Assembly: GCF_000186865.1 (NCBI RefSeq)
Contig: NW_008705567.1
Location: 824,994 to 888,993 of the forward strand
Direction: 5' to 3'
DNA: 64,000 nt
Origin: Aureococcus anophagefferens
Lineage: Eukaryota > Sar > Pelagophyceae > Pelagomonadales > Pelagomonadaceae
Of this stretch, positions 563-7,306 are shown piece by piece. The notes under the pieces are model-generated. The model did no database searches and was not told the DNA's origin. It was given only the letters and a program-made list of their open reading frames with translations. Position 1 is the stretch's first letter. Each line of letters begins with the position of its first letter. The position numbers were made by a program, and so were the translations under genes.

Positions 563-751
563 GATTCCGCGGCGCGGCGTCGAGCCACCGGCTTTTTGCC
601 CTGCTTTTTTTTTGCTGTGGCGAAAAGAGGCTCGCCGCACGCGCTCGTCGCCCCGTAAGAGCGCCCCCCCCCGTCCGCCACAAGAGACGGAACAGGCCCC
701 AGAACACGCGAAGGAGACCGCACGAGCCCTCGCTACGACGAGGACCGCACG

Positions 752-1885
752 ATGCGCGACTGGGAGAAGAAGCAAAAAGAATATGAAGAGCGCATGGCCC
801 GGGTGAAGAACGCTAAGCTCCGTACGACCTGCACCATCTGCGGAGCGAAAGCGAAGCTCCCATGCCCCTGCGGAACCGCCCAGTACTGCAGTGTCGCCTG
901 TCAGAAGGTCGACTGGCGCGAGCGCGGCCACCGGACGGCGTGCAAGAAGATCCGAGACGAGCGCGCGGCGGAGGCGGCGCGGGCCGAGGCGCCGACGCCC
1001 CCGCCGTCGCCGCCAAAGGAGGTGTTCTACGGCCCCGCGCCGCGGTCGCACGCCGACGAAGTCCGCGCGCGCATCGCCGCGGAACACGAGGCCGCTCGCG
1101 CGCGGCGCGAGGCGAACCCGGAGCCCGAGCCGCTGTCGGCGCGATTTGGGAGCCGGTGCCCAGTTTGCTTCGAGGACTGGGACGTGAATGAGTGGCAAAA
1201 CATGCGTCCGTGTTGCTGCCTGAAGGTCTGCGAGTCGTGCCACCACAAGATCGGCTACAAGCCGTGTCCCCTCTGTCGTAAGCCGGCGCCGAAGACTCAT
1301 GCGGAGTGTCTGGCTCACATTCGTCGCCACATGGAAAATGATGTGCCAGAAGCGATCAGTCATTTGCAGTGTCGGCGCATGGGTGCCTACGTAGTCTCGT
1401 CCGGAGCCTACAAACCAAGCCGAATCCACGTAGGTTTTTTGGCGGATTGCTACTTTTCTGGTAGCCATGAGCTCGTGATATCTACCAAGAAGGGTGCGAG
1501 ATTGTATAAACGTGCGGCAGAGCTCGGAGACGTTAATGCGACGTGGAATCTTGCGATTTTGTACAAAAACGGACAGGGCGTCAAGATGAACGAGACCAAG
1601 GCCATGCAACTGAGTCGCGTGGCCGCGGACCGGGGCCATCCAGTAGCACAGTTCCAGTTGGGAATGGAGATTCTAGGGGAGAAAAACAAGGAGACAGAAC
1701 AGGAGGGGCTCCGTTACGTCTGGTTAGCGGCAAAACAAGGCCTTATGGACGCGGAGTTCATCCTGGGCGGTATTTATTCCTGCGGAGAAGACGCCAACCT
1801 CGACGCAGCCAAATTCTGGCTTTCGCGGGCCGCCGCCAAGGGCAGCGAGCAAGCAAAGACGCGCCTGGCGCAACTCGACGCGTGA
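752..1885 (+). CDS. MYND zinc finger / RING-like / Sel1-repeat protein
   Basis: Intact single-exon protein of 377 aa. Residues about 27-66 form a MYND finger (CTICGAK ... CPCGTAQYCSVACQ ... GHRTAC), with the Cys/His spacing expected for zinc binding. Residues about 136-173 form a RING-like cluster (CPVCFED ... CCCLKVCESCHHK ... CPLCRK). Residues about 248-377 are Sel1-like repeats (AAELGDVNATWNLA, YKNGQGV, AAKQGLMDAEF), a TPR-like protein-binding scaffold. The start is taken at 752 because it begins the continuous reading of all three modules. MYND plus Sel1 proteins are often substrate adaptors, so a role in protein turnover is likely, but no substrate can be read from the sequence. It converges on the BRC-repeat gene, the two stops being about 32 bases apart. 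Confidence 0.9.
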   Translation: MRDWEKKQKEYEERMARVKNAKLRTTCTICGAKAKLPCPCGTAQYCSVACQKVDWRERGHRTACKKIRDERAAEAARAEAPTPPPSPPKEVFYGPAPRSHADEVRARIAAEHEAARARREANPEPEPLSARFGSRCPVCFEDWDVNEWQNMRPCCCLKVCESCHHKIGYKPCPLCRKPAPKTHAECLAHIRRHMENDVPEAISHLQCRRMGAYVVSSGAYKPSRIHVGFLADCYFSGSHELVISTKKGARLYKRAAELGDVNATWNLAILYKNGQGVKMNETKAMQLSRVAADRGHPVAQFQLGMEILGEKNKETEQEGLRYVWLAAKQGLMDAEFILGGIYSCGEDANLDAAKFWLSRAAAKGSEQAKTRLAQLDA

Positions 1886-1917: not shown

Positions 1918-4909
1918 TTACCCCACGTCCGCCATCCAGTCCCCCGGCTCGCCCGCGTCCGCGACGCCCGCGGCGGTGACGGCGAAGTGCGACGACGGCA
2001 GGTCGCCGAAGTCGTCGCGCGCGCCCGTGACGAGCGTCGCGGACCGCTCGCCGGAGGCCGCGCTCCGCGTGAGCCGCAGGCGCGCCGTCGCGACCTTGGC
2101 GAAGGTCGCGTCGTCGGCGGCGACGACGGCGCTCGGGTCGGCGCCGTCGGAGAAGTCCGCGGAGACGTGGTTCGTGAGCACCGCGGGGACGCCGTGCGCC
2201 TGCGACAGCGCGGCGACGGCGGCGAGCGCGTCCGCGAGCGCGGCGCGCCGCTCCCGGGGCGGCAGCGCGCGGACGACGTCCGCGAGGCAGTCGACGACGA
2301 GGAGCGACACGCCGTGGGCCGCGCAGACCTTGGGCGCGTCGCGCGCGAGCGTCGCGAGGAGCACCTCCGCGTCGTGCGCCGACGACACGAGCAGGTCCCG
2401 CGCGCGGTCCGCGTTTCCGCCGCGGGCCTTGAGGAAGGCGAGCGACGCGCGCGCGGCGCTCCGGCCCTTGGTCTCGACGACGAGGACCTTCGCGCCGGGC
2501 GCCGTCCGCGCGAGCGTGAGCGCGACGAGCGTGTGCGCGAGGTTCGACTTGCCCGCGCCGGCCTTGCCGTGGATCTCGAGGATGTCGCCGCGGCCGAGGG
2601 CCAGCGCGCGGTCGACGGCCTCGCCGCGCAGGAGGCCGAGCCGCGGCCGCGGCGCGCGCGGCGCGGGCGGCGGCGGCGGCGGCGGCGTCGCGGGCCGCGG
2701 CGCCGCCGCGGGCCGCGCGGGCGACTGGCGCGAGCGCTTCCGCGCGAGCGCCGCGGCCTTGTTCTCCTCGATGCGCCGCTTCAGCGCCTCGTTCGCCGTG
2801 ACCGCCGCGCAGGGCGGCCGCGGCCGCGGCTCCGGCTCCGCGGGCGGCGCGGCCGCGGGCGGCGNNNNNNNNNNNNNNNNNNNNNNNNNNNNNNNNNNNN
2901 NNNNNNNNNNNNNNNNNNNNNNNNNNNNNNNNNNNNNNNNNNNNNNNNNNNNNNNNNNNNNNNNNNNNNNNNNNNNNNNNNNNNNNNNNNNNNNNNNNNN
3001 NNNNNNNNNNNNNNNNNNNNNNNNNNNNNNNNNNNNNNNNNNNNNNNNNNNNNNNNNNNNNNNNNNNNNNNNNNNNNNNNNNNNGCGACGTGATCGCGGC
3101 CATCGCCGCCGCGACGGCGGCTCCCGCCGGGACCGCGGGCGGCGGCGCGTCTTGCGGCGCGGGCGCGGGCTTCGGCGGGCCCACGCGCTTCGGCACGCGG
3201 ATGGGTCTCGGGCCCTTGGGCTTCGCGGCCGCGGGTTTCGCGGCCCGCGCGTCGTTCATGAGCTTCGACGCCTTCTTCAGCGCCGCCTCCGACGGGCAGA
3301 CGAGCTTGCGCGAGCCCGACGTGACGAAGACGCCCGGCGTGACCGCGGGCGGCTCGTCGTCGACCTCCGCCGCCGGCGCCGCCGGCTTGGCGGGCGCGGC
3401 CACGGGCCGCGGCACGACGATGGGCCTCGGCCCCGCGGGTCTCGACGCCTTCGTCGCCCCGGCGTCCTTCATGAGTTTCGTCGCCTTCTCGAGCGCGGCG
3501 TCCGACGGACACACGCGCTTCCGGGAGCCCGACGTGACGAAGACGCCCGGCGGCGGCGCCGGCGCCTCCGGCTCGGCCGGCGGCGCGGCGGCTTTCGCCG
3601 GGCCCGAGTCGCTCATCAGCTTCGTCGCCTTCTTGAGCGCGGCGTCCGACGGGCACACGAGCTTTCGCGAGCCCGACGTGACGAAGACGCCCGGCGGCGG
3701 CGCCGGCGGCGCGTCCAGCTCGGCCGCCGGCGCGGCGGCTTTCGTCGGGCCCGAGTCGCTCATCAGCTTCGTCGCCTTCTTGAGCGCCGCGTCCGACGGG
3801 CACACGAGCTTCCGGGAGCCCGACGTGACGAAGACGCCCGGCGGCGGCGCCGGCGGCGCGTCCAGCTCGGCAGTCGGCGCGGCGGCTTTCGCCGGCTCCG
3901 AGTCGCTCATGAGCTTCGTGGCCTTCTCGAGCGCCGCGTCCGATGGCGACACGCGCTTCCGGGAGCCCGACGTGACGAAGACGCCCGGCGGCGGCGCCGG
4001 CGGCACGTCCAGCTCGGCCGCCGGCGCGGCGGCTTTCGCCGGCTCCGAGTCGCTCATCAGCTTCGTCGCCTTCTTGAGCGCCGCGTCCGACGGGCACACG
4101 AGCTTCCGGGAGCCCGACGTGACGAAGACGCCCGGCGGCGGCGCCGGCGCCTCCGGCTCGGCCGCCGGCTCGGCGGCGTTCGCCGGCTCCGAGTCGCTCA
4201 TCAGCTTCGTCGCCTTCTTGAGCGCCGCGTCCGACGGGCACACGAGCTTTCGCGAGCCCGACGTGACGAAGACGCCCGGCGGCGGCGCCGGCGGCGCGTC
4301 CAGCTCGGCCGGCGGCGCGGCGGCTTTTGTCGGCGCGGCGGCTTTCGCCGGCTCCGAGTCGCTCATCAGCTTCGTCGCCTTCTTCAGCGCGGCATCCGAC
4401 GGGCACACAAGCTTCCGGGAGCCCGACGTGACGAAGACGCCCGGCGGCGGCGCGTCCATCGTCGCCTCGTTCGTCTCCGGCTCCGCGGCGGCCGGCGCCT
4501 CGGGCCGCGACGCGGGCTCCTCGGCGATCGCGGGCAGCGGCGGCGGCGGCGGCGGCGCGACGGTCGCCACGACCTCGCGACGCGGCGGCGGCGCGACGGC
4601 GCGCGGCGGCCGCCGCGGCGGCGCGACGGCGCGCGGCGGCGCGACGAGCTCGGCGCCGAGCAGGATGACGACCTGCTCGCCCTTGATCGTGTTCAGCAGA
4701 TAGTTCGTCAGGCGCACGACGCCGCCGATGCCCAGGCCGCGCAGCGTCACGTTCAGCTTCTGCGCGACGTTGCACGCGATCGTCGCGTCGCCGTCGGTGA
4801 GCGTGAGGCGCAGGCGCTGGTGGTGGTTGAAAGACATGGCCTTGACGCGCAAGCACGGGTTGACGACCGCAGCGCTCTCGGCCTTGATCTTTTCTATCAA
4901 TCCTTTCAT
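1918..4909 (-). CDS. RPA70N-like + eight BRC repeats + RecA/RAD51-like ATPase fusion
   Basis: The protein starts MKGLIEKIKAESAAV. Residues about 15-85 resemble the N-terminal OB fold of the large RPA subunit (NHHQRLRLTLTDGD, VVRLTNYLLNTIKGEQVVIL). Residues about 157-552 hold eight near-identical repeats with core FVTSGSRK...PSDAALKKATKLM. This matches the BRCA2 BRC pattern F-x-T-[A/S]-S-G-x-x ... S-x-x-A-L-x-K-A-x-x-L-[F/M], the module that binds RAD51. After proline-rich linker and 220 unknown bases, the last ~315 residues contain a charged helix and a RecA core with Walker A GKAGAGKSN and Walker B LLVVD. A final stretch (ATARLRLTRSA...FAVTAAGV) resembles XRCC3-like RAD51 paralogues. The frame after the gap differs by one base from that before it, which is expected if the gap length is only an estimate. 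Total about 1,000 aa. Inferred role: nuclear homologous recombination. Confidence 0.8.
2865..3084. other. Assembly gap (220 N)
   Basis: Unknown bases inside the BRC/RecA gene. Proline/alanine-rich coding sequence without stops lies on both sides, so the gap probably spans a low-complexity linker. Confidence 0.99.
3240..4450 (-). repeat. Array of eight BRC-like repeats
   Basis: Eight copies of a unit of about 147 bp (48-55 codons in six copies; the last two have longer linkers). Each encodes PPGVFVTSGSRK followed by ALKKATKLM or ALEKATKLM, with A/P/E-rich spacers. Copies 1, 2, 3, 5 and 6 are almost identical in the core, while copies 4 and 7 share KRV and ALEKA. Compared with human BRC2, the FxxA-type anchor and the ALxKAxxL(F/M)SD helix are both present. 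Confidence 0.85.
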
Positions 4910-5093
4910 TGCGCCACGCGTCCGACGCGCCGCGCGCGTCTCGAGACGCGCGCGCGCGCTCGAGACGTGCGCGCGCGCTCGAGACCGCGCCGCGACGACG
5001 ACGAGGGCGCCCTTTGAGCGCTCGAGCTCGAGCGGGAACGCGCTGGCTCGGACAGTCGCACCGGCGCGGCGGCCGACGGCGGAGCTGGTCGGC

Positions 5094-7306
5094 ATGGAGC
5101 GCCAGTCCTCGTCTGGCTGGCGCATCGACGCGCCGAGCTGGACGCCGCCACCGCCAGCGCCGCAGGCCTCGGCGCCAGCACCGCCGCCGCCACCGGCGCC
5201 GACATCGCCGCGACCGAACCCCAAGGAGCCGTCGCAGCGAGGCGGCCGCAGCGGCGGCGGCCGCAGCGGCAGCGGCGGCGGCCGCGGCGGCCGCGGCCGG
5301 GGCCGGGGCAAGGGCAAGGGCCGCAAGGAGCCGCCGGGTCTGCACCGACTCCTGGAGATGGGCTACGACGCCGCCGCCGCGCGCGAGGCGCTCGCGGCAT
5401 GCGGCGGCGACGTCGCCGCGGCCGTCGGGTCGCTCGGCTCGGGCTCGCCCGCGCGCGGGTCGCCGCCGCGCGGCGGCGGCCGCCGCGCGGACCACCTGCT
5501 GCGCTTCACGAGCGACCGCGACCGGCCGAGCAAGCCCGCGCCGCGGCCGAAGGCGCGGCCGCACAAGGCGTTTCGGGCAAAAGGTATAGCGTTCGAGCAG
5601 GCCTCGGCGCACCTGCTCGTGGACGCGCCGGCGTGCTCGCCGCTCGTCGCCGACGCCGACTGCGCGCCGGACTGGGCCGACGTCGTCGCGCTGGACGTCT
5701 TCGGGGGCGAGTACGTCGACTGCCCCGTCTGCCTCGGGGCAGGAAAAGAGAGCGACATTCCCAACTTCAAAGGCTCCGAGCTCGGCCGTTTTCCACTCGT
5801 TTCGGCTGATTTTTGGACGAGCGATCGTCTCTCGGAACGGTCTCGAAGCGTGGATGTGTTTTTTGTAACGCGCGCGCGCGGAACACTCATGTTGAAGAGA
5901 ACTTGAATCACCCTTTTCCTGCCCAGGTCTGCCTCGACGCGGCGCGCATGCCCGTGGCCGCGCGCTGCGGCCACGTCTTCTGCGGGCCCTGCGTCGTGCG
6001 CCACGCGAAGATGGACGACGTGAGCCGGAGCGCGCGCTGCCCCTGCTGCGGCGGGCCGCTACGGGTGGGCGACCTGAGGCCCTGCCGCGTGCGGCAGCGC
6101 GACGCGCCGCCGGCCGCGGCGAAACGCGCGATCGAGCTCGTCCTGCTGCGGCGGCCGCGGTCCGCGCGGGCGCCCCGGGCGCACTGCGAGCGCGACGACG
6201 GGGATCTCTGCGAGCCGCTGGGCAAGCTGACGGCCTGCGACGGCGCGGCCTTCGACCGGGCCTGGGCGCGCTTCGACGACGCGGCGGCCGCCGCGGCCGC
6301 GGCCGCGGACGACTCCGTCGAGCGGCGCGACGTCGCCGTCGCCGTCGAGGCGCTCGCGGCCGTGCGCGCGGCGGCGGCATCGCGGCCGCGCGACGCCGTC
6401 GACGTGCCCTTGGACGCCGCGGAAAAGGCGTATTATTTCTACGGGCGCCGCGACGGCGCCCTCGAGTTCCTGCACCCGCTCTTCCTGAAGCTGCTCCTCG
6501 CGGCGGCGGGCGGCGACAGCGACGCCTTGCCGCGGACGTTGACGGCGACGGTGTCGCACGTCGAGCGCGTCGAGCAGACGGAGGAGGCGCGGAGGCGGTT
6601 CCCCTGGGCGGCGCACGTGCCGCTCGGGACGGACTTTGCTTTGCTCGACGCGACGAAGATCGCCGGCGACGGCGACGACGCCTGGGCGAAGCGCTGCGCC
6701 GACGCGCGCAGGGCCGACGAGGGCCTCGACGCGGGCCTGCGCGAGCGCGCGGACGCGGTGAGAAAGGAAAGGGACCGCGCGAAGCGCGAGGAGAAGCGCC
6801 ACGCGAAGCACGGCGAGGCGCGGCTCCCGAAGAAGGCGGACCCCTTCGCCTACTCGCGGAGCGACTTCGGGCGCCTCTCGTCCGAGGCCGTGCCCATCCC
6901 CGGCGCCGGCGCGCGCGTCGGCCGCGACGACGACGACGACTCCGACGACGGCGACGGCGCCGAGGCCGCGCCGGCGCTCGGGTCGTCGCCGAACCAGATG
7001 TCCTTCGCGGCGACCGTGAACAGGGACTTGTTTTCTGTCGCGTCGGCCTTCCCCGAGCTCGGCGGGGGCCGCGCGCCGGCGCCGGCCCCTCCGCCTCGCT
7101 GGGGCCGGCCCGCGGCGCCGCCCGCGGAGTCGGCCGTCGTCGACGACGCGGGCGAGGCCGTCGACTTCGGCGGCTCCGCGGACCTCGCCGGCGCGCTCGC
7201 GACGGCGCTCGCGGGCGTCGACGCGGCCTCGCCGCCGCGGCGCGGGAAGAAGGGCGGCCGGAAGAAGGTGCTCCTCTCGTCCGGCGGCGGCCGGCGCTAC
7301 GACTAA
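5094..7306 (+). CDS. RNF10-type RING E3 ubiquitin ligase with UBA domain
   Basis: Two exons (5094-5726 and 5927-7306) encode 670 aa. An N-terminal proline- and RG-rich region is followed by a UBA-like helix bundle at about residues 83-112 (LHRLLEMGYDAAAAREAL). A RING finger at about 209-250 has CPVCLDAARMP...CGHVFC...CPCC and is complete only when the introner element is removed. Downstream is the RNF10 landmark KAYYFYGRRDGALEFLHPLF, then a long basic coiled region (RKERDRAKREEKRHAKH) and an acidic tail. RNF10 proteins are cytosolic ligases that ubiquitylate small ribosomal subunit proteins on stalled ribosomes. That function is inferred from the family. The gene shares a 184-base divergent region with the BRC gene and converges on the transferase gene. 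Confidence 0.88.
5727..5926 (+). mobile_element. Introner element A1 (intron of the RNF10-like gene)
   Basis: 200 nt. The duplicated target GTCTGCCTCG lies at 5727 and again at 5927. The element begins GGGGCAGGAAAAG and ends CTTTTCCTGCCCAG. The first target copy provides the GT donor and the element end provides AG. Removal restores the RING codons CPVC-LDAA in frame (phase 0). Confidence 0.95.

Follow-up and report, generated by a model that had tools for sequence, protein, structure and literature searches.

A predicted Aureococcus anophagefferens protein combining an RPA70N-type domain, BRC repeats and a RAD51-family ATPase module

Layout of the locus

The window, that is, the whole stretch of 64,000 nucleotides of Aureococcus anophagefferens DNA that we analysed, carries three domains in one order on its minus strand: an RPA70N-type domain, an array of eight BRC repeats and a RAD51-family RecA core. 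Pfam matches were judged by their curated cut-offs, and all three domains of the fusion gene pass. The original prediction, which placed these three parts on one strand, was correct in both coordinates and content. The features of the locus are as follows.

1918..4909, minus strand: whole gene, comprising RPA70N, BRC array, linker with a 220-N gap and RAD51-family core (open reading frames, Pfam and the JL721_6829 model)
4907-4909, minus strand: ATG start codon
4643..4903, minus strand: RPA70N-type (Rep-A_N) domain, residues 3-89 (Pfam)
4358..4441, minus strand: BRC repeat 1
4193..4276, minus strand: BRC repeat 2
4049..4132, minus strand: BRC repeat 3
3902..3985, minus strand: BRC repeat 4
3755..3838, minus strand: BRC repeat 5
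3608..3691, minus strand: BRC repeat 6
3464..3547, minus strand: BRC repeat 7, the best-scoring stretch for PF00634
3251..3334, minus strand: BRC repeat 8
2865..3084, no strand: assembly gap of 220 N
2725..2787, minus strand: basic, probably helical segment ALKRRIEENKAAALARKRSRQ, after the gap (translation)
1921..2655, minus strand: RAD51-family RecA core with Walker A GKAGAGKSN, Walker B LLVVD and Lys at the position of the catalytic Glu
1918-1920, minus strand: stop codon

The gene has 608 codons before the gap and 314 after it, and a Pro/Ala-rich linker lies between the BRC repeats and the RAD51-family module. Open frames are cheap at the GC content of the window, several of them exceeding 1000 codons. 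Upstream of the gene, CG-alternating runs with repeated CTCGAGAC-like words (4927-4990) separate it from an open frame on the plus strand, whose ATG lies near 5094. On its other side a convergent gene with a MYND zinc finger and Sel1 repeats (659-1885, plus strand) comes within 32 bases of its end. The same pairing is found on contig C3, where two RAD51-family loci lying 67 kb apart and sharing one 134-aa stretch (L002, G000 C3:2616094, and L003, C3:2682883) each adjoin a MYND-Sel1-like open frame. The MYND-Sel1 family is however very large, numbering 214 genomic matches at E<=1e-10 (109 of 339 candidates having been scored), so that chance suffices to explain the neighbourhood despite the pairing on C3, and we did not retain it as a functional clue.

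Continuity across the assembly gap

If the 220 N are taken literally, the two halves of the gene fall in different frames and the window alone hence does not show one open reading frame. The earlier statement that no stop separates the domains is accurate within each half but does not extend across the gap as written. Evidence on continuity comes from four other gene models of A. anophagefferens, which we took as separate assemblies by inference from their tags and the lengths of their contigs. JL721_6829 (P0001, 985 aa, on a 498-kb contig) contains RPA70N, the BRC array, with 6 intact GVFVTSGSRK motifs, and the ATPase in a single model, and JL720_2390 (P0005, 281 aa, on a 7.1-Mb contig) retains, in the same order, RPA70N, a single repeat and the last part of the ATPase. 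The other two models, SO694_00179035 (P0004, 377 aa), which has its own start, and AURANDRAFT_69219 (P0003, partial, on a 2.3-kb contig), cover the ATPase only. The halves are joined, then, in two of the four models and not in the other two. The presence of joined models in two other assemblies led us to discard misassembly as an explanation.

We also considered that two tandem genes might be split within the gap, one encoding an RPA70N-BRC protein and the other a separate RAD51 paralog. The modelling of SO694_00179035 as a separate 377-aa protein and of AURANDRAFT_69219 as an ATPase alone would agree with such an arrangement, and intergenic spaces can be short, as the 32 bases to the convergent MYND-Sel1 gene illustrate. 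Nevertheless, we regard two genes as unlikely, given that the halves are joined in the models of two other assemblies and that the ATPase half has its first Met only at residue 310 of 314. GC at third positions next to the gap (0.93 before it and 1.0 after it) also speaks against a split, even if the GC content is high everywhere. In the JL721 gene model the gap measures ~227 nt, provided that there is no intron there, and is read through without a stop; this is weak evidence, because the frame of this stretch is shifted with respect to both flanks and gene models are stop-free by construction. A single gene encompassing RPA70N, repeats and ATPase is very probable and remains, as originally proposed, the best reading of a locus that is found in one piece in JL721_6829, in the same order in JL720_2390, and without an early Met in its ATPase half.

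Repeats, ATPase module and RPA-type parts

The eight repeats, 5 of which are identical in protein, are spaced by 55, 48, 49, 49, 49, 48 and 71 aa. The BRCA2 repeat profile (PF00634, cut-off 20.3 bits) gives 37.9 bits for the whole N-terminal half and 43.3 bits for the array alone, in which 7 stretches pass E<=10 individually. A single repeat yields 13.2 bits, below the cut-off, and the match spans profile positions 7-29, without the Phe motif at the start of the profile. Chance is an unlikely source of this score: of four shuffled arrays made, three were scanned, and none of them had a Pfam match at E<=10. Yet the array is also over the cut-off for two unrelated families, DUF2786 (32.6 bits, cut-off 23.9) and Nse4-Nse3_bdg (30.7 bits, cut-off 23), and pooling eight copies into one score therefore does not settle the matter alone. 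We set both families aside, not through an excluding test but on the grounds that only short pieces of their profiles are matched and that the repeat is present in the BRCA2 of this genome.

It is mainly this last observation that identifies the repeats as BRC type, and it upholds, together with the PF00634 cut-off, the original assignment. The genome's BRCA2 (contig C31) contains the same repeat type twice ahead of its OB1 domain, with linkers that are alike by eye. Its repeat 1 reads LVTS and its repeat 2 FVTS, and on their own they score 13.8 bits for PF00634, again below the cut-off. A further protein, P0002, is alike by eye to the C31 BRCA2 and has helical and OB1 domains (Pfam). Loci with a BRCA2 OB1 domain are found at G000 C31:163475-163852 and C42:186567-186944, and of the two stretches around them the repeat motif was seen in that of C31 only.

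All 8 repeats of the fusion gene read FVTS, keeping the Phe of the FxxA motif and replacing its Ala with Ser. In the genome's RAD51, the segment that precedes the core contains FVTA. A Ser at the Ala position of human BRC5 is described as linked to low affinity (PMC9162458), and rice BRC repeats are described as mostly FxxG (PMC12611145), so that FVTS does not rule out RAD51 binding.

The repeats are under purifying selection as protein. Their pN/pS is 0.19 in frame, compared with 2.45 and 2.12 in the other sense frames, and with 3.5, 2.1 and a low 0.27 in the antisense frames; differences summed over repeat pairs amount to 19, 31 and 142 at codon positions 1, 2 and 3. On the strength of this selection we rejected decay of the gene. 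That the locus is not a working gene at all, being decayed or mispredicted sequence, might be suggested by parts of the other assemblies' models that read in other frames, but is made highly improbable by the in-frame pN/pS and by the near-identity of the ATPase to AURANDRAFT_69219, with one difference in the 214 aa that the two share.

The C-terminal half passes the Rad51 profile (PF08423, 33.9 bits against a cut-off of 22), and its Walker A GKAGAGKSN and Walker B LLVVD are kept and align with those of RAD51 and archaeal relatives, which supports the RAD51-family core. The predicted model has a RAD51-type fold, the alignment behind it being composed mostly of archaeal relatives. The position of the catalytic glutamate (RAD51 E163) is occupied by Lys, the sequence reading ETKG where RAD51 has DTEG. 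More broadly, the RAD51 stretch DTEGTFRP, which we take to line the Ala pocket, corresponds to ETKGRSAA in the fusion ATPase. Of the DNA-contacting loops, the L1 motif and the L2 glycines are not kept. The replaced glutamate and the altered loops suggest that the module is probably an ATP binder rather than a recombinase, and they go against the notion of a 'self-contained' mediator with a working ATPase. Human RAD51D and XRCC2 are described as binding ATP without the catalytic glutamate (PMC7614784; PMC7618403).

Loss of the glutamate does not, however, name a paralog, since the same position reads DTEH at the genome's XRCC2-like locus and DCDG at its RAD51C-like locus. A tree places the ATPase in no named paralog group (end branch 5.23), its highest identity in the tree set being 33%, to a locus on contig C10. 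The best NCBIfam model is RadB, at 51.7 bits against a cut-off of 172.4, and RAD51B is the only named paralog among 41 PDB sequence matches at E<=1. The genome has a separate RAD51 (contig C14) that is over the RAD51 equivalog cut-off.

The RPA70N assignment is a narrow pass for Rep-A_N (PF04057, 28.1 bits against a cut-off of 26.7); the best PDB matches to the N-domain are RPA70N, only at E about 0.09, and the rpa1 model scores 12.3 bits against a cut-off of 334.2. RPA70N is a docking domain, and Pfam returned no OB-fold or other RPA1 domain match in the fusion protein. PF04057 matches 7 places in the genome, 6 of them over the cut-off, the one in the window included. At another locus (L025, G000 C5:575235-575426) Rep-A_N and a SPRY domain share one open frame, both over Pfam cut-offs.

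The basic segment at 2725..2787 resembles, in our estimation, the RPA32C-binding motifs of SMARCAL1 and UNG2, and forms a helix over 20-44 in a poor single-sequence model. A PDB search with this segment returned no SMARCAL1 or UNG2 peptide, and a genome search returned only the fusion gene's own copy (1 candidate scored). RPA_C is over its cut-off at three loci of the genome, which constitutes weak evidence for RPA2, since the same profile also matches in 8 of 14 prokaryote control genomes, in 2 of them over the cut-off.

Mode of action and comparison with known systems

The anatomy of the protein and the selection on its repeats are read from the sequence itself, and from them we infer every step of its action. 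The reading that we favour, with a probability of roughly 0.55, is that of a natural recombination mediator of roughly 1000 aa in which RPA docking, a BRC array and an ATP-binding paralog module are combined. RPA70N, perhaps together with the basic helix after the gap, would dock the protein at RPA-coated single-stranded DNA. There the array, made of eight probably weak RAD51 binders, would hold several copies of the separate RAD51 (C14) in trans by their polymerisation pocket. The C-terminal module would bind ATP with little or no turnover, stack on the delivered RAD51 and seed or cap the RAD51 filament, as paralog complexes do. Such a design is plausible because engineered BRC-RPA fusions are described as correcting the recombination defect of BRCA2-deficient cells (PMC3240595); a BRC-RPA fusion also appears in PMC2408642.

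The protein could instead be a brake rather than a loader, its array sequestering RAD51 next to a degenerate, idle ATP module and so limiting recombination. The change of the catalytic Glu to Lys, the L1 motif and L2 glycines that are not kept, and the lack of a Pfam match to a BRCA2-type DNA-binding domain would all be compatible with this, as would the inhibition of filament formation in vitro described for Leishmania BRC peptides (PMC9162458). On the other hand, a dead module would have no need to keep its Walker A and Walker B motifs, as this one does; the Glu is likewise missing from human RAD51D and XRCC2, which are nonetheless described as parts of loading complexes (PMC7614784; PMC7618403); and the parts that dock on RPA, should they prove genuine, would be a sign that the protein is targeted to single-stranded DNA. 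We find a brake improbable on balance.

The original prediction had the repeats acting either on the protein's own ATPase or on separate RAD51, and of these options the second is preferred. Binding in cis, which would make the protein auto-inhibited or self-oligomerising, draws on the fact that the chain keeps RAD51's own order of N-domain, Phe motif and ATPase, and that the ATPase half has no Phe ahead of its core. It appears even less probable than a brake: the same repeat type also occurs in the genome's BRCA2, which makes RAD51 the likelier partner, and ETKGRSAA stands in the place of DTEGTFRP, whose role at the Ala pocket we presume. As for origin, the conserved order would fit a RAD51 paralog in which the single polymerisation motif gave way to eight BRCA2-type motifs and the N-domain to RPA70N, a derivation that we put forward only tentatively. 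In that case a single chain could line up several RAD51 protomers behind its own ATP-bound module and offer them to single-stranded DNA, bringing BRCA2 and paralog functions into one polypeptide.

Taken separately, all parts of the fusion are of known kinds, and usually sit on separate DNA-repair proteins; it is their combination that is new to us. We did not find the same fusion outside Aureococcus in searches of limited reach, nor such a protein in the titles and abstract openings of the open-licence PMC papers listed in our searches. With RPA1 the protein has the Rep-A_N domain in common and no other matched domain. Like BRCA2, it carries tandem BRC repeats, near-identical to one another and of the type found in the genome's own BRCA2, and a recent BRC expansion is described in Trypanosoma brucei (PMC2408642). 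Where BRCA2 has helical and OB domains, however, the fusion protein has RPA70N and a RAD51-type core; neither half matched BRCA-2_helical or BRCA-2_OB1 at E<=10, and the 220-base gap could not accommodate such domains.

With the RAD51 paralogs the protein shares the RAD51-type fold, both Walker motifs and a missing catalytic Glu, as in human RAD51D and XRCC2. It differs from them by the RPA70N and BRC repeats in front, where no RAD51-type N-domain is seen. The residue at what we take to be the position of the lysine finger, a feature described in PMC7614784, is not Lys. RAD51D is the most alike on some counts, with the highest identity (26%, 8faz_D) among the 50 matches listed, but is absent among the 50 matches listed in another comparison of the ATPase module. 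BRCA2 and RAD51 paralogs both regulate RAD51 loading in human cells, and a natural BRC and RAD51-paralog protein would offer a small single-chain system in which to test their cooperation.

A further comparable design is man-made. Engineered BRC-RPA70 fusions, described as active in recombination (PMC3240595), also place BRC repeats and an RPA-related part on one chain, but do so with ssDNA-binding parts of RPA, whereas the protein described here has a docking-type N-domain and a RAD51-type module. It would be a natural counterpart of these laboratory-built fusions.
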